In this document: in pieces, positions 8,478 to 61,428 of the stretch | Numbering within the stretch: the stretch's first letter is position 1 | How the letters are laid out: each line of letters starts with the position of its first letter | Origin: a virus | IMG/VR virus record: IMGVR_UViG_3300009506_000002 | Coordinates: 78,378 to 142,377 of that record | Length of the DNA stretch: 64,000 nucleotides | Strand: one strand, 5' to 3' | Program-made: the position numbers and the translations under genes | Notes under the pieces: generated by a model | Database searches by the model: none | The model's input: only the letters and a program-made list of their open reading frames with translations | What the model was told of the DNA's origin: nothing

Positions 8478-8684
8478 TCATGAAAATGTATAAAAGCAAT
8501 CGAGATCTTCATCAACGTAGAACCCTAAGCTGTCAAGCAGGGCAATCTCCTCAGATGAATATTGGTTCGGGTTACCGACGTACATGACATCGTGCTCGAA
8601 GCTGTAATCACACTTGCCTTCTTTCTCGGCGATGATTGCCAGCGCGGCGACAAGTCTTTGAATGAGTGAAAGTTCTGCACTCAT
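8478..8684 (-). CDS. small hypothetical protein
   Basis: 68 aa from ATG 8684, overlapping the RNA ligase stop as ATGA. Contains LIQRLVAALAIIAEKEG and an acidic end. Function unknown. Confidence 0.6.
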   Translation of the reverse strand: MSAELSLIQRLVAALAIIAEKEGKCDYSFEHDVMYVGNPNQYSSEEIALLDSLGFYVDEDLDCFYTFS

Positions 8685-9700
8685 AGCTTGTCGGTCTCCG
8701 CGAACCAAAATACACGCGCAGAGTTGGAGATGTGCTTGCCGACATCAGCCGCTGTAAAGCCATTCTCCTCCATCAGGGCCTGCTCTTCGTCAAGGATGTC
8801 GTTGACAACCCAACGCAGGAAATCACCTGTGTTCTTACGCTCGATCTCGATACCATGCTGGCGCATGACATCAAGACCCTGATTCAGACGATTCTTGGTG
8901 ACAGTAGCAGCCACAAACTCATGGATAGAGTTCATCTTCTCTACGTCAACCGCAGCAAGCGTCTTGACCTTTGAGGAAGAGTGGCGCTCGTCCTTGACCT
9001 TGAACCAGAACTGTGGGTCACGGTAGCCGTAGGACTCACACTTCCAGACGATGCCTTCGCCGGCGCCTTCCTTGTTGAAGTGCGCGCCGACAGGGCACTG
9101 GTCACCGACCTTTTGAGTCAACTCTGCAAGCTGGGCAGTAGCCAGCTCTGGACGATTGAAGTCAATCTCAATCTTGAATGTAGGGAACTGGCGGATGTGG
9201 TAGATGCCCATATCGTTGATCTTCTGAGTCCACTCAGGATCAGAAGTGACATCCTCAATTGAAGGGTTGCTCCAAGTGTCATCATCCAGGTCGCGGTAGG
9301 CGAAGATGACGAACATCTTGTCGAGGCCTGTGATTGCCACACCCTTCTGAATGTTGCCACCGCACCACTCACCGTAGACTGCCGTGCTGTATGATGCGCC
9401 ATCCTTCAGCTCTGCAGGGAGAGCATCAATGAAAGCAGCAAAGCCAGCATTGTCGTCCTCTGGAGTGATGACACGCTCACGCGACTGTGCGTGAAGGTGG
9501 CCGCCAGCATCGAAGACTACCGCAGCGTTCGTGCCGTGCAGCTTGACGCTACCCTCAAAGACGAGAGTAGGATAGTCAGATGTATGTTCGTAGATTGGAT
9601 TACCTGCGGCGTCTTTGCCTTTGAAGTCATGATGGAGCTGAACAGATCTTACAACGTCACGGAACTGACGGATTTTGGGGAATTTAATCATTTGGGTCAT
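8681..9700 (-). CDS. rnlB: RNA ligase, Rnl2-like
   Basis: Covalent nucleotidyltransferase that seals RNA nicks via a ligase-AMP. Motif I is VKLHGTN (Lys about residue 53), as in T4 Rnl2 KIHGTN. Motif IV is EGIVWK and motif V is WFKVKDERHSSS. Length about 339 aa equals T4 Rnl2 (334). Start taken at ATG 9700 because AGAGG lies just upstream. It follows the cREC-domain gene directly, forming an RNA-repair pair. Confidence 0.85.
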   Translation of the reverse strand: MTQMIKFPKIRQFRDVVRSVQLHHDFKGKDAAGNPIYEHTSDYPTLVFEGSVKLHGTNAAVVFDAGGHLHAQSRERVITPEDDNAGFAAFIDALPAELKDGASYSTAVYGEWCGGNIQKGVAITGLDKMFVIFAYRDLDDDTWSNPSIEDVTSDPEWTQKINDMGIYHIRQFPTFKIEIDFNRPELATAQLAELTQKVGDQCPVGAHFNKEGAGEGIVWKCESYGYRDPQFWFKVKDERHSSSKVKTLAAVDVEKMNSIHEFVAATVTKNRLNQGLDVMRQHGIEIERKNTGDFLRWVVNDILDEEQALMEENGFTAADVGKHISNSARVFWFAETDKL

Positions 9701-10001
9701 AATCACCTCTGGTTAAGATAACAGTCAAGTTTTTGGCGATGTTCAATGCGCCAACAGGGTTCGCTGAATGAACACCGAAGCTAAAGCACTTTGGGATGAA
9801 ATTTCCCATTTCGAGATCAGTTTCGATCATCCAGTTTACCACAATCATAGCGGTGTCATCTCCGCCCAGGTCATGGTCAAAACTGATATAGTCAGGGCAG
9901 CCTTCACTAAGCATGTAGGAAATGGCTTCTGCAGAACTACGCAATATAGCGTCGAACACACCCTTTGGGTCACGATCATCGTCAATGTAAATTCGAATCA
10001 T
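9684..10001 (-). CDS. cREC domain protein (cyclic-phosphate processing receiver)
   Basis: About 105 aa from ATG 10001 (GGAGTT upstream). The pattern IYIDDDRDP, then DYISFDHDLGGDDTA and FGVHSANPVGA, matches the response-regulator-like receiver domain that Aravind's group linked to processing of cyclic-phosphate RNA or nucleotide ends in RNA-repair and conflict contexts. The acidic triplet and the HDLGG motif are intact. Its overlap with the RNA ligase gene fits a joint role in RNA end repair; the reaction is inferred. Confidence 0.7.
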   Translation of the reverse strand: MIRIYIDDDRDPKGVFDAILRSSAEAISYMLSEGCPDYISFDHDLGGDDTAMIVVNWMIETDLEMGNFIPKCFSFGVHSANPVGALNIAKNLTVILTRGDYDPND

Positions 10002-15976: not shown

Positions 15977-16210
15977 TCATCTGCCAGCTTGTAGCCACCG
16001 ATAACCTGCGCATAACTCACAGAGAGCGGGAGCGGTTTGACCCCATATCAGTCTCACCGCAGAAGTGCCCCATCCACGGATGCGAGCAACAAAAGCATCC
16101 CGATCATCGTCGGCGACCATCTCGTTGTTCGCATCCCAGATGTAGCCACATTCATACCGAAACGGTGGCTTGTAAAGGGCAAGTGCTGCCGCTCGAAGTT
16201 CGTTTGTCAT
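15977..16210 (-). CDS. small hypothetical protein
   Basis: 77 aa; its start overlaps the rnlA stop. Contains GYIWDANNEMVADD, a motif seen in small proteins of many tailed phages. Function unknown. Confidence 0.6.
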   Translation of the reverse strand: MTNELRAAALALYKPPFRYECGYIWDANNEMVADDDRDAFVARIRGWGTSAVRLIWGQTAPALCELCAGYRWLQAGR

Positions 16211-17346
16211 ACCAGCTCTCCTGCTTTAACCTTCCAGTCCTCGAACTTAGACTGCTTGCCGAGGTGGTTCTTCAGTTGGTCAACCACAAAGAGGAACACG
16301 TCCTCATCTGGGCGATCAAACAGACGGAACACGATGTTGCTGAAGGCAGCAGCACGATACTCGGACAGAGCAAAGTCCTTCTTGGTAGAGAACTTGGCCT
16401 TGGTAGCCACAGCCCAGGCACCTACTGCATCAATCAGCACATGCAGGTCACGGGCAAACTCGCCAAAGTAGACACGGTCAGACTCTTCGATGTATGGCAT
16501 GATGTCATCAATCGAAGCAGTCGCGTGGCAGTCAAGAACGAGCTGCGCGGTGATGTGTGGGTGGTTGAACATCTCCTTGATCTTGTGGCGCTTGACGTAC
16601 CACGGAGACTTGATCTTAACCGGGCCAGTCTCAACCAGCTCGACTACGACACCCTCATCGTTAGACATGTTCTCAACAACCTTCATGATGTCAACCAGAG
16701 TGGTAGACGGACCGAAAGCGAAGTGAGGAACAGTCTCTACGCCGTACTCGACGGCCTTGCGGAATACAGAACCCTTCTTGTGCTCGTATGCGCCAGTCTT
16801 GTTATCGCGTACAGCAATCAGACGCAGGAATGCGCGGTCATACTGCACCACGATCTTAGACGGGATGAAGTTCGGGTCGTGGAACTCAAAGATTGGAGTC
16901 AGGCCAGCGAAGATGCACTCCGCAACAAACGCCTTCATGCCAGTGGTCTGAGTCAGTGGGTGATGCTCGAGGTAGCGCTCAAACTCCTCTGCGACACGCT
17001 TAGTGCCCCAGATGATCTTACCATTGCACAGGAATGGTGCAACCATTGCGCCGTCGAGCTTAGTGGTCACAGACACGATGCCCTCGTTGACGAGGTCGCC
17101 AATCTGGGTGTGCTCCTTCTCGTTGACGTTGAAGAACTTGTGCAGCGGACGACGGATGACCTTGCCAGTTACGTTGTCGAAGATGATACCACGGCACTCG
17201 AGCGCCTCTGGTGAATCAAACGTATCTGGGAAGGCAACGTTGTAGGCTACGACAGTGTAACCATCGCGCACGTTGACGCCGATCTCATCCTTGTGAGCGA
17301 CAGCAGCCAGAAACTCGTCTTTGTTAGTGATGTATGGCAGAATCAT
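16207..17346 (-). CDS. rnlA: RNA ligase 1 (Rnl1 family)
   Basis: ATP-dependent ssRNA ligase; T4 Rnl1 reseals host-cleaved tRNA(Lys) together with Pnkp. 379 aa versus 374 in T4. Motif I is TTKLDGAMV with Lys96 (T4 Lys99). The upstream block ECRGIIFD...RRPLHKFFNVNE and IFEFHDPNFIPSKIVVQYD mirror T4 Rnl1. Motif IV/V region: NDEGVVVEL ... VKIKSPWYVKRHK. Preceded by a 38-aa membrane peptide in the same transcript. Confidence 0.9.
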   Translation of the reverse strand: MILPYITNKDEFLAAVAHKDEIGVNVRDGYTVVAYNVAFPDTFDSPEALECRGIIFDNVTGKVIRRPLHKFFNVNEKEHTQIGDLVNEGIVSVTTKLDGAMVAPFLCNGKIIWGTKRVAEEFERYLEHHPLTQTTGMKAFVAECIFAGLTPIFEFHDPNFIPSKIVVQYDRAFLRLIAVRDNKTGAYEHKKGSVFRKAVEYGVETVPHFAFGPSTTLVDIMKVVENMSNDEGVVVELVETGPVKIKSPWYVKRHKIKEMFNHPHITAQLVLDCHATASIDDIMPYIEESDRVYFGEFARDLHVLIDAVGAWAVATKAKFSTKKDFALSEYRAAAFSNIVFRLFDRPDEDVFLFVVDQLKNHLGKQSKFEDWKVKAGELV

Positions 17347-27920: not shown

Positions 27921-29036
27921 CTAGCCCTCGACATTCACAACCATGTCTACTTCGTCAAGAGTAGGCCAGACGAATCCGCCCATCTTCTCAACCAGCAGGT
28001 GTGACAGGTCCTTACCTTCTTCAGCGCGACCACGGTTACGCTCGAAGATAGTTGGTGCGCCAGTGTGGAACACAGTAGCCACAACCTTGTAGCCCTTACG
28101 GCGTGCTGGGTTGATGAAAGCACGGCGGGCCTTCTTGCTCAGGTTCATCATGTCGATGATGACGCTCTTGCCAGTGTTCAGGGACAACTGGAACAGGTCA
28201 TTCATCATCTTGTTGATAACGTCCTGATCAACGGTCTTCCAGTTCTTGCCGTAGTCCTTGTAACCGCCAGCCTTACGAACCAGCTCGTCACGGGACAGAA
28301 CGATGTCACACTTCACGTTCAGGTCGTTGACCAAAACTTTCTCGCCTGGGTCTGCCAGACGGTTCTGAATGAAGGTTGACTTGCCACAACCCATCGGGCC
28401 AACCAACAGGATCAGCCAAGGCTCATCGTCACTAACTTCTGGCTCAGAGAGAGTCACGAAGTCCATGTAGCGGGTGTAGTCGCCCTTTGAGCCAGCGTGC
28501 TCGGCAGCGTAGATGCGGCCTTCAACGTCAGCAGCGGCAGTCTGTGCCAGCAGGTTGAGGAAGTCTGACTCGCCAGCGAATGCAGCAGCAACGCCAGCAT
28601 CCTTCTGCTCCTGAGTCTGGTTCCGGTTGCCCTGCCAGGTGTAGAGCGCCGAGTGCTGTGCGCACAGACGTGCAACAGTGAACATCTGATCCTGGGTAAG
28701 CAGGTCGCTGTACGCTTTGCGCAGAATCTCTACAGCGTAGTAGAAAGACACACCATCATGACCACGGAACGAAACGTAGTTTGTCTCAAGGTTAACCCGG
28801 CGAGTGAACGCTTTGCCTACGTCATGCAGCAGAGCGGCCAACTGTACTTCGATCGGAGAGCCATTGATGCGCGCCTGATTGACGACCATCATGGTATGCG
28901 TCCAGACGTCGCCTTCCGTGTGATACGGATTGGTGTCGAGGTCTGAGAAGTTATGGTCAGCATTCTTCATCGCCATTACGAGCTCTGGGAAGTTGCGCAT
29001 AAAGCGCGCGATCAAATCTTGTGTGTCTACAGTCAT
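27921..29036 (-). CDS. HD-Pnk RNA/DNA end-healing enzyme (HD phosphoesterase + 5'-kinase)
   Basis: 371-aa fusion. N-terminal HD domain (about 30-190): YHTEGDVWTHTMMVV ... ALLHDVGKA, with His39, His47 and His71-Asp72 as metal ligands. C-terminal P-loop kinase (about 205-371): GPMGCGKST at 213-221, with DMMN and a lid FERNRGRAEEG. This is the layout of Runella HD-Pnk, which removes 2',3'-cyclic phosphate and phosphorylates 5'-OH ends. T4 uses a kinase-HAD fusion (Pnkp) for the same healing step before Rnl1 sealing; here the HD domain replaces the HAD. A nucleotidase-kinase on other substrates is the alternative. Confidence 0.82.
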   Translation of the reverse strand: MTVDTQDLIARFMRNFPELVMAMKNADHNFSDLDTNPYHTEGDVWTHTMMVVNQARINGSPIEVQLAALLHDVGKAFTRRVNLETNYVSFRGHDGVSFYYAVEILRKAYSDLLTQDQMFTVARLCAQHSALYTWQGNRNQTQEQKDAGVAAAFAGESDFLNLLAQTAAADVEGRIYAAEHAGSKGDYTRYMDFVTLSEPEVSDDEPWLILLVGPMGCGKSTFIQNRLADPGEKVLVNDLNVKCDIVLSRDELVRKAGGYKDYGKNWKTVDQDVINKMMNDLFQLSLNTGKSVIIDMMNLSKKARRAFINPARRKGYKVVATVFHTGAPTIFERNRGRAEEGKDLSHLLVEKMGGFVWPTLDEVDMVVNVEG

Positions 29037-49641: not shown

Positions 49642-50514
49642 TTATTTATACGAATCAATGATTTCACCTTCTCTGAGATCGCACACATATTTCCATTCAC
49701 CTTCCACCATAAACCGATGGCCGTCAGTGAACTCCAAGATCTCACCACTTTCTAACTCAATTTCAGTTATCCATGCGCCATCATGTTCTGTTGTCCACTT
49801 CACCGCTTCTGGTCCGGCAATGGTCATAACTTGATCGCCAGCAACGACATCCTTGATAGACTTTGTCGTTCCATCAGGCAACAAAACCGTCATCTTTTCC
49901 GTTCCGCATTGGTAGGTGTGGTTGATGGCAATGAGAGGAATGTCCTTCAGTGTGAGGTGCGGTGTGACAATACGCCACAAAGACTTCAACTGCTTCGCGC
50001 GCGTCATGTCAGCAACAGCCTTCATGTCGAGTGCGTCTTCGACTTCCTTCTTTGATGCCAGGTTACCGATTGAGTCAATGAACAGGATAACGTCATCCTC
50101 TTCCTCAATGTGATCGAGCTGATTCATGATGTCGAATTTCAGCTCTTCGATGTTGGTGATTGGGGTATGCACTACCCTCTGTGGGTCAATACCAACTGAC
50201 TTGAAATAGGACTGACCTGCGCCGAATTCTGAGTCATAGAACAGACAAACTGCATCAGGTTTAGCCTTCATGTAAGCCGCTGCCATGATCAGTCCGAACA
50301 GCGTCTTGAAGTGCTTAGACGGTCCTGCAATCATGGTCAAGCCACAACCCAGGCCACCCATAGGGCTACCAGACAGACCGATGTTGATAGCAGGAACCAC
50401 TGTAGGAACCAGCTTCTTATTGGAATGTACTTTTGAGTTGTCGAGTGTTTCGGTACGCTTAGTTAGCGTTGAATTTTTGAGTAGTCTTTCAGTCAGACTC
50501 GGTTTCGCTGCCAT
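49642..50514 (-). CDS. uvsX: recombinase UvsX, N-terminal half with N-intein
   Basis: 290 aa. Extein residues 1-202 carry Walker A GPSKHFKT (64-71), Walker B VILFIDSIG and end IAINHTYQ. The N-intein, residues 203-290, starts CGTEKMTVLLPDG, has block B FTDGHRFM (TxxH) and ends IIDSYK. Joined, UvsX is about 348 aa (T4 391). Role: strand exchange in recombination-dependent replication. Confidence 0.92.
   Translation of the reverse strand: MAAKPSLTERLLKNSTLTKRTETLDNSKVHSNKKLVPTVVPAINIGLSGSPMGGLGCGLTMIAGPSKHFKTLFGLIMAAAYMKAKPDAVCLFYDSEFGAGQSYFKSVGIDPQRVVHTPITNIEELKFDIMNQLDHIEEEDDVILFIDSIGNLASKKEVEDALDMKAVADMTRAKQLKSLWRIVTPHLTLKDIPLIAINHTYQCGTEKMTVLLPDGTTKSIKDVVAGDQVMTIAGPEAVKWTTEHDGAWITEIELESGEILEFTDGHRFMVEGEWKYVCDLREGEIIDSYK
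49643..49650 (-). promoter_or_regulatory. perfect T4 late promoter for the HNH gene
   Basis: TATAAATA on the minus strand, eight of eight to the T4 late consensus, 35 bases before the HNH start. Confidence 0.7.
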
Positions 50515-59425: not shown

Positions 59426-59502
59426 TGGTACTTCCTGAAGGAATCGAACCTTCTCGCCTCTCCTTGTAAGGGAGCGTCCTTCCCATTCGGACCCAAGGAA
59501 GC
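59426..59502 (-). tRNA. tRNA-Val(TAC)
   Basis: 77 nt, CCA encoded. Acceptor GCTTCCT/AGGAAGT; loop CTTACAA. Confidence 0.92.
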
Positions 59503-60115: not shown

Positions 60116-60191
60116 TGGTGGATCGCCCGGGACTCGAACCCGGATCTGTCAGATTAAGAGTCTGCGATAATAGCCATTATACGAACGATCC
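60116..60191 (-). tRNA. tRNA-Lys(CTT)
   Basis: 76 nt, CCA encoded. Acceptor GGATCGT/GCGATCC; loop CTCTTAA. Confidence 0.92.
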
Positions 60192-60194
60192 GTT

Positions 60195-61149
60195 TTGAAA
60201 CTCACCCTTATTGGTTCATACGAAGAACTGATCAATTCAGCGCATGAACTAATAAAAGTGCAAGCCTTTAGAATTTGCTTGCTTGATGCAGCTTTAGCTC
60301 TTGTACGCTTTGAGGTGCTACCCTCCAGCTTGAGAACCTTTCCACGAAGCGCCATGCTTCGTACTACACCATGACCGCCTTTTATTTTACTGGTCTGGCA
60401 TTTGACCACTAACGCAGGTTTACTCTAGGATCTCTTTCCTTACAACACCGGCCAAAGTGCTGCAAGTGCAGTCGTCCTAAACTCACCGCCGCCTTGCGAG
60501 CTTTGGTAAGTCCTCATTACTCCGAAGAGTTGAGGAATTAGGTCACTTTTCTACCTACGTGGGGCAACGTCTTTGCGTTTTTGATTTAATACAAAGTTGG
60601 AATTGAACCAACACAAGTTCCTTTAAAGGGAACCGACCTACCATTAGTCGATTTGTGAACCTACCACGATGAGCGTTGCCCTGTGACTTCATACCCTTTT
60701 GAGGCACAAAATATCACCCACCGAATGTCTTTTGCCTTGCTATCAGCTACTAAACCATACTCTACGACCCTGGCAGCAAGTGTACTACCAAACCCATATC
60801 ATATTGCTATCTTGCTCTAGGTTGCAACACCTCGAACTCAATAACTACCCTTTGACCATCAGATTTCGCTGGCTTGCATCCTTATGCCGATTTGCGGTCA
60901 GCATCGACTTCACCTTTGGTTATTACGATCAGTCTTTTCAGGTCCAACTTCAAACCTATCTCCCACCGGAGCAGAAGACGAGTGGTCTTGGCTTGCTTGA
61001 ATGAACCATCTCTGGCGGGGCGCTGTAGGAAGCACTTCCCCTTTCCTGGCTTTCACCATTTATTCTTGCGTTAGGACGTCAAGCCGTCCATTAAATTGTA
61101 AAAGCTTTTGTAACTTTCTGCGCTTGCGCGCTGGTCAGTCACTGTCTTG
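60195..61149 (-). ncRNA. giant structured non-coding RNA (GOLLD/ROOL-like candidate)
   Basis: Nearly 1 kb without a convincing gene, starting just after its own promoter and ending before tRNA-Lys. Clear hairpins on the minus strand include GCGC-GCAA-GCGC, a GACG/CGTC stem, CCTCA-ACTC-TTCG-GAGT-(A)ATGAGG, CTGCA/TGCAG, a 7-bp ACGAAGC/GCTTCGT and a GTTCAT.../...ATGAAC stem. A tRNA-like domain sits inside (60590-60657). Size, phage origin, adjacency to tRNAs and an embedded tRNA are the known features of GOLLD RNAs; ROOL is similar. I cannot confirm the family by sequence alone. Confidence 0.7.
60590..60657 (-). tRNA. tRNA-like domain inside the giant RNA, anticodon TTA
   Basis: D-arm GACT...GGTC, anticodon arm GTTCC-CTTTAAA-GGAAC, T-arm GTTGG-TTCAATT-CCAAC. 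Only five acceptor pairs and no CCA. Anticodon TTA would read the UAA stop codon. Confidence 0.5.
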
Positions 61150-61191: not shown

Positions 61192-61428
61192 TTAGCGGTA
61201 CTGCGGGAATGGTGTGAACTCTTTTCCCTTATTGTACGGTTTCGCCATCAGTGCAACGATCGCCTTTTCAGCGGCTGCCTTGTTGGCATAAACATACACG
61301 CCTTCTTTGTTGCTCAGAAGCTTGTTCTTGACTTTGTCGTAGATGTGATAGCGGCCTGTGGCCTTGCCATTACGTTCTCCGCGCAGCTCTTGTGACAGCT
61401 CCTGCTTCTTGGCGTTTGAAAGTGCCAT
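61192..61428 (-). CDS. basic hypothetical protein
   Basis: 78 aa, Lys-rich (SNAKKQELSQELRGERNGK), with a YANKAAAEKAIVALM helix. Own promoter; ends next to the giant-RNA promoter. Could bind that RNA, by position only. Confidence 0.6.
   Translation of the reverse strand: MALSNAKKQELSQELRGERNGKATGRYHIYDKVKNKLLSNKEGVYVYANKAAAEKAIVALMAKPYNKGKEFTPFPQYR

Follow-up and report, generated by a model that had tools for sequence, protein, structure and literature searches.

A divergent GOLLD RNA in a phage tRNA island

The DNA analyzed here, referred to as the window, is a 64,000-nucleotide (nt) stretch covering bases 78378 to 142377 of the 142,377-base virus record IMGVR_UViG_3300009506_000002. T4-like phage genes and 36 tRNAs called by ARAGORN are present in it, the latter all on the minus strand. 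Between tRNA-Lys(CTT) (60116 to 60191, minus strand; identified by ARAGORN and RF00005) and an open reading frame (ORF) of 78 amino acids at 61192, exactly 1000 nt are devoid of genes, as the initial annotation had noted in proposing a structured RNA with its own promoter and an embedded tRNA-like cloverleaf. In this gap we identified a GOLLD RNA about 890 nt long; its identity is secure, and the locus adds a new, divergent member to an RNA family that was already known. Read on the minus strand like the tRNAs, where the initial annotation had given no strand, the conserved RNA runs from 61149 to about 60262 and is followed by a hairpin (60255 to 60208) and then by tRNA-Lys, the next gene downstream.

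The 3′ domain, 463 nt including a tRNA-like insertion (60724 to 60262, minus strand), matches the GOLLD model RF02032 over its full length (model positions 1 to 416) with 128.5 bits and an E value of 3.4e-35, and a search of the whole record revealed no other GOLLD. The score lies under the Rfam gathering cutoff of 150 bits, which is a curation threshold and not a structural feature, and the window GOLLD is therefore missed when annotation is run with default settings; other full-length matches in our sample also score under 150 bits (L050 to L052, L151, L288, L327, and L328). Could the stretch instead be an untranslated spacer, or a set of short genes, with chance structure? The subthreshold score speaks for this. 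Nevertheless, we regard it as next to impossible given the E value over the full model and the covariation in both domains, the latter of which refutes it. A coding region was also considered and rejected. ROOL RNAs resemble the window RNA in being large, cage-forming phage RNAs located near tRNAs (PMC12286853), but cmscan of the region with the ROOL covariance model gave no match at E values up to 10, and a ROOL identity was rejected. These data bear out the initial annotation, which had named the GOLLD class and suggested covariance searches with both models and comparative folding in relatives as checks. The window RNA shares with the GOLLDs of RF02032 the full-length 3′ domain match, the two-domain layout, the domain sizes, the location in a phage tRNA island, and a tRNA in the linker; it stands apart in its score under the gathering cutoff and in a 3′ domain identity of about 39 to 53% to other members (MAFFT). 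Separately, a 424-kb phage with a full GOLLD at 215867 to 216331 gave another GOLLD-like match, very weak at 40 bits, at G006:167864-168218 (L053).

Upstream of the Rfam match, the 425 nt from 61149 to 60725 (minus strand) contain stretches conserved in several other GOLLDs and were identified as the 5′ domain by homology to, and covariation with, 16 other phage GOLLDs. RNAalifold predicted 86 pairs from the 17-sequence alignment, with compensatory changes in 70 of them. The fraction of paired cells was 92.4%, versus 70.2% in shuffles and 31.6 to 42.9% when the partners were slid, a control that favors a structure taken, as here, from the very alignment being tested. The covariation score was 0.645, versus 0.236 for shuffled alignments. 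In the window sequence alone, 62 of 80 pairs were kept (27 to 38 when slid), 19 of which are compensatory. Folded by itself, this domain has a weaker energy (z = −1.9), so the case for it rests on covariation. Thus, the window RNA has the structured, more variable 5′ domain of a GOLLD.

When 86 GOLLDs (an effective number of about 52) were scanned for covariation, the stems of the Rfam model were recovered, together with two helices outside that nested structure, which are placed as additional helices rather than matched singly to the numbered contacts seen by cryo-electron microscopy. One is a pseudoknot of 8 consecutive base pairs (bp), in which GGGCAACG (60681 to 60674, minus strand) pairs with CGUUGCCC (60569 to 60562, minus strand), enclosing the linker with its tRNA-like domain. 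The other is a long-range helix of 6 consecutive pairs between GUGACC (60546 to 60541) and GGUCAU (60376 to 60371), both on the minus strand, with a pair fraction of 0.98 to 1.0 over the 86 GOLLDs. The strands were confirmed by a check of the window sequence. Folding energy also distinguished the strands: the minus strand from 61149 to 60192 reached −321.5 kcal/mol (z = −6.6 versus dinucleotide shuffles; plus strand, z = −2.6). Hairpins capped by GNRA or UNCG loops, as claimed in the initial annotation, were indeed enriched on the minus strand, with 5 observed versus 1.0 in shuffles and none of 500 shuffles having as many, and no clear excess was found on the plus strand.

The linker tRNA and loss of its acceptor end

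The tRNA-like domain lies in the variable linker, beginning 66 nt into the 3′ domain (60658 to 60588, minus strand); it scores 51.1 bits with RF00005 and is called tRNA-Stop(tta) by ARAGORN. Its D, anticodon, and T arms are intact, and the anticodon loop reads CUUUAAA (anticodon UUA). The acceptor stem, however, has 5 bp, with pairs 1-72 and 2-71 mismatched, and CCA is absent, whereas it is encoded by 32 of the 34 free tRNAs of the window. The domain is therefore without the 7-bp acceptor stem, encoded CCA, and usable anticodon of a functional tRNA, although enzymatic CCA addition is possible. Hence, the cloverleaf of the initial annotation exists, but it is not an ordinary tRNA, as the acceptor end is gone.

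Relatives were collected by several searches. The RF02032 consensus retrieved GOLLDs from Acinetobacter, Mycobacterium, Streptococcus, and Roseobacter-type phages and from two uncultured phages of 635 to 642 kb. With a pattern built from motifs common to the model and the window 3′ domain, 20 viral contigs were retrieved, and a GOLLD was confirmed in every one. Neither a strict pattern (CTAATNCCTC...GCTCGCAAGGC) nor a 3′ end pattern had a match in the viral contigs; the pattern AAAAGCAAAAGNCT...GAAAG yielded mostly chance hits (80 records, 4 of them with a confirmed full-length GOLLD), and six pattern hits in genome_contigs contained no GOLLD, consistent with chance. The viral contigs were also scanned for embedded domains by way of a T arm followed by the GOLLD linker flank, leaving the acceptor stem and the anticodon unconstrained, and GOLLD was confirmed in 62 of 75 new records. 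The resulting 76 embedded domains formed 51 clusters at 85% identity and were set against 785 free tRNAs of these loci; one parser was used for both sets, and the acceptor stem was not scored. ARAGORN favors intact free tRNAs and thereby biases this control, but the bias is limited, since 67 of the calls it made in the sampled contigs fell on embedded domains.

A complete 7-bp acceptor stem was present in none of the 51 embedded clusters versus 614 of the 785 free tRNAs (p = 4e-32), and CCA was encoded in 2 versus 695 (p = 2e-39); these p values overstate independence even after clustering, because the embedded sequences are related and share one insertion site, with ancestry uncorrected. Both top acceptor pairs were formed in 7 of 51 clusters versus 675 of 785 free tRNAs. 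In the embedded domains, pairs 1-72 and 2-71 were no more frequent than in shuffled sequences, whereas pairs 3 to 7 and the D, anticodon, and T stems exceeded all 1000 shuffles. Aberrant anticodon loops, defined as those with a wrong length, a stop anticodon, A34 outside Arg, or no U33, were found in 18 of 51 clusters versus 27 of 785 free tRNAs. The domain starts 60 to 73 nt into the 3′ domain in 50 of the 51 clusters. To judge from these sequence comparisons, the embedded domain looks like a fixed tRNA-shaped module that would be neither excisable nor chargeable. A tRNA in the GOLLD linker has already been reported, and the description of 2009 may have noticed the loss; the family-wide loss of the acceptor end is what the present analysis adds.

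Among the known members, the GOLLD of a Mycobacterium tRNA array (PMC6582537) and that of mycobacteriophage Weiss13 (L010) likewise carry a degenerate tRNA in the linker; the acceptor stem of the latter retains 1 of 7 pairs, versus 5 of 7 in the window. The GOLLD of roseophage DSS3_MAL1 (L011) has a tRNA-Arg(UCU)-like linker domain, a homologous 5′ domain, and a place within a tRNA cluster, but it scores 160.5 bits, and the next gene downstream encodes transfer-messenger RNA (tmRNA), not tRNA-Lys.

Predicted expression and neighborhood of the GOLLD locus

A consensus scan detected a sigma-70-like site, TTGACA-17-TAGAGT with an extended TG (10 of 12 matches; 61184 to 61156, minus strand), about 7 nt ahead of the first base of the 5′ domain. 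Five such sites occur in the region versus 1.5 expected, so this candidate promoter of the GOLLD RNA is suggestive only; the promoter of the initial annotation thus stands as a good consensus site with 17-nt spacing, and not beyond that. The hairpin 3′ of the 3′ domain (60255 to 60208, minus strand) is strong in both the minimum free energy and the centroid folds and is without a U-tract, and no intrinsic terminator was called between the 3′ domain and tRNA-Lys. We therefore propose that transcription, probably from the TTGACA/TAGAGT site, reads through into tRNA-Lys(CTT), which lies 70 nt downstream of the 3′ domain. Cleavage by RNase P at 60191 during 5′ processing of tRNA-Lys could then plausibly form the 3′ end of GOLLD.

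Short distances to a downstream RNA gene were also observed elsewhere: a tRNA call begins 9 nt past the GOLLD domain in three other loci (L008, L009, and L012). In Streptococcus prophage Javan636, one of these, the tRNA (L012:2074-2151) has a UUA anticodon and an apparently complete acceptor stem, with no CCA. The tmRNA gene of DSS3_MAL1 (L011:2117-2525) lies 83 nt past the 3′ domain, and a tmRNA gene is found downstream of GOLLD in a second phage as well (L151:2638-3013).

A blastn search of the region against cultured phages returned chance pieces only, no relatives of the 78-amino-acid neighbor protein were found, and a topoisomerase search yielded one 11-kb contig only; the last two results precluded a comparison of the tRNA-island neighborhood with that of a close relative of this phage. 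Elsewhere in the window, a tRNA called Cys has the anticodon ACA (59426 to 59502, minus strand). Such an A34 anticodon is unusual in bacteria and phages. A RecA/UvsX-like protein (49642 to 50514, minus strand) shows a weak Hint (intein-type) match near its C-terminal end, which may indicate an intein or a split gene. In other phage tRNA islands, three non-GOLLD tRNAs with the amber anticodon CUA were seen (L017:2835-2913, L016:601-670, and L016:4003-4077), possibly linked to stop-codon recoding.

A proposed cage with tethered tRNA mimics

To our knowledge, GOLLD ranks among the largest of those structured RNA classes that have no known function. The one member with a solved structure, env-38, is 833 nt long, with a 5′ region (1 to 420) that forms a cap, a 3′ region (421 to 833) that forms a ring, and a disordered linker (497 to 538) inside a closed 14-mer 380 Å wide (PMC12286853). 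The window RNA is like it in its two domains of 425 and 463 nt, in the position of the linker, and in its pseudoknots, and differs in that the 42-nt disordered linker of env-38 is replaced by a 71-nt tRNA-like fold. We consider it probable that this divergent GOLLD, encoded in the tRNA island of its large T4-like phage, forms a cage with tethered tRNA mimics inside. By homology to the env-38 14-mer, the 5′ domain would serve as the cap and the 3′ domain as the ring of a homo-oligomeric hollow cage with the linker inside, such that each subunit would carry one tRNA-like fold within the shell. With the acceptor tip and CCA gone, and often the decoding loop too, neither RNase P nor tRNA 3′ processing would be expected to split GOLLD there, and no aminoacyl-tRNA would be formed. 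The loss of the tip may be explained most simply by the fate of a complete tRNA, at which these activities would cut and so split the RNA. The tRNA-like domain would then most likely be a tethered mimic that recruits or holds something recognizing the tRNA elbow or the anticodon arm. Extended to the family, we tentatively suggest that the linker tRNA of phage GOLLDs is an RNA module in its own right, a permanent mimic with a 5-bp acceptor stem, no CCA, and a bracketing pseudoknot, and that it may display many elbows and anticodon arms in a cage to capture a tRNA-binding partner during infection.

Besides the subthreshold score and the shared ancestry given above, three observations weigh against this explanation. 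Only env-38 is known to form the cage, and its linker has no tRNA. CCA is kept in 3 of the 76 embedded domains (L036, L044, and L283), so some may still be processed. Finally, 10 of 28 distinct GOLLDs sampled without selecting for a tRNA do not have one, so the class does not depend on an embedded tRNA.

The exceptions with CCA would also fit a real ochre suppressor tRNA (UUA), which RNase P would cut out of the GOLLD transcript for maturation, with GOLLD acting in part as a tRNA carrier. The domain is called a tRNA by ARAGORN and RF00005, has intact D, anticodon, and T arms and a 7-nt loop with U33, and sits in an island of tRNA genes. Against these stand its mismatched top acceptor pairs and missing CCA, next to free tRNAs of the window that nearly all encode it, and the family-wide lack of complete acceptor stems. 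Excision would moreover break GOLLD inside the 3′ domain, and for the pseudo-tRNA within a mycobacterial GOLLD no expression of its own was detectable (PMC6582537). TAA is the stop codon of 19 of 41 phage genes, including those for primase and DnaB; the cost of a functional UUA tRNA would thus be high, which argues against a working suppressor. We therefore rejected this candidate as highly improbable. A neutral relic, in which tRNA genes insert or recombine into a tolerant linker and then decay without function, is a more serious contender, though we think it rather unlikely. The linker is variable, and the related GOLLDs L033, L035, L042, and L043 have a different one at the same place; moreover, a lost acceptor tip, CCA, and anticodon are typical of relics. 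Yet the decay is uneven, since the tip alone is at chance while pairs 3 to 7 and the three other stems covary (0 of 1000 shuffles), and the start offset is nearly constant. Recent, repeated replacement by free tRNAs could mimic some of this covariation.

A specific form of the mimic reading, which we hold to be improbable as it stands, is that host anticodon nucleases are the target of the domain, which would act as their decoy or sensor together with phage tRNA-repair enzymes. The phage, with over 30 tRNAs, encodes a T4-like RNA-repair set on the minus strand: two RNA ligases (RNA_ligase family, 8681 to 9706; RNA_lig_T4_1, 16207 to 17346) and a kinase-type protein with HD and AAA_33 domains (27921 to 29036). 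In addition, the level of GOLLD goes up during lysis (PMC12286853, citing a thesis). On the other side, anticodons vary widely among GOLLDs, which would be odd for a decoy of a single nuclease. Given the two ligases and the kinase/HD protein, a link to tRNA damage and repair is worth testing.

For annotation, the results mean that pseudo-tRNAs are counted as real ones, as in the 67 ARAGORN calls that matched embedded domains, and that the copy in the window is even reported as a stop suppressor. For the family, the one solved structure shows an empty cage, and a linker that keeps the tRNA fold minus the part needed for processing and charging offers a concrete hypothesis for what the interior may hold. 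The pattern of acceptor loss points to the tRNA-bearing GOLLDs as the members to express and image.
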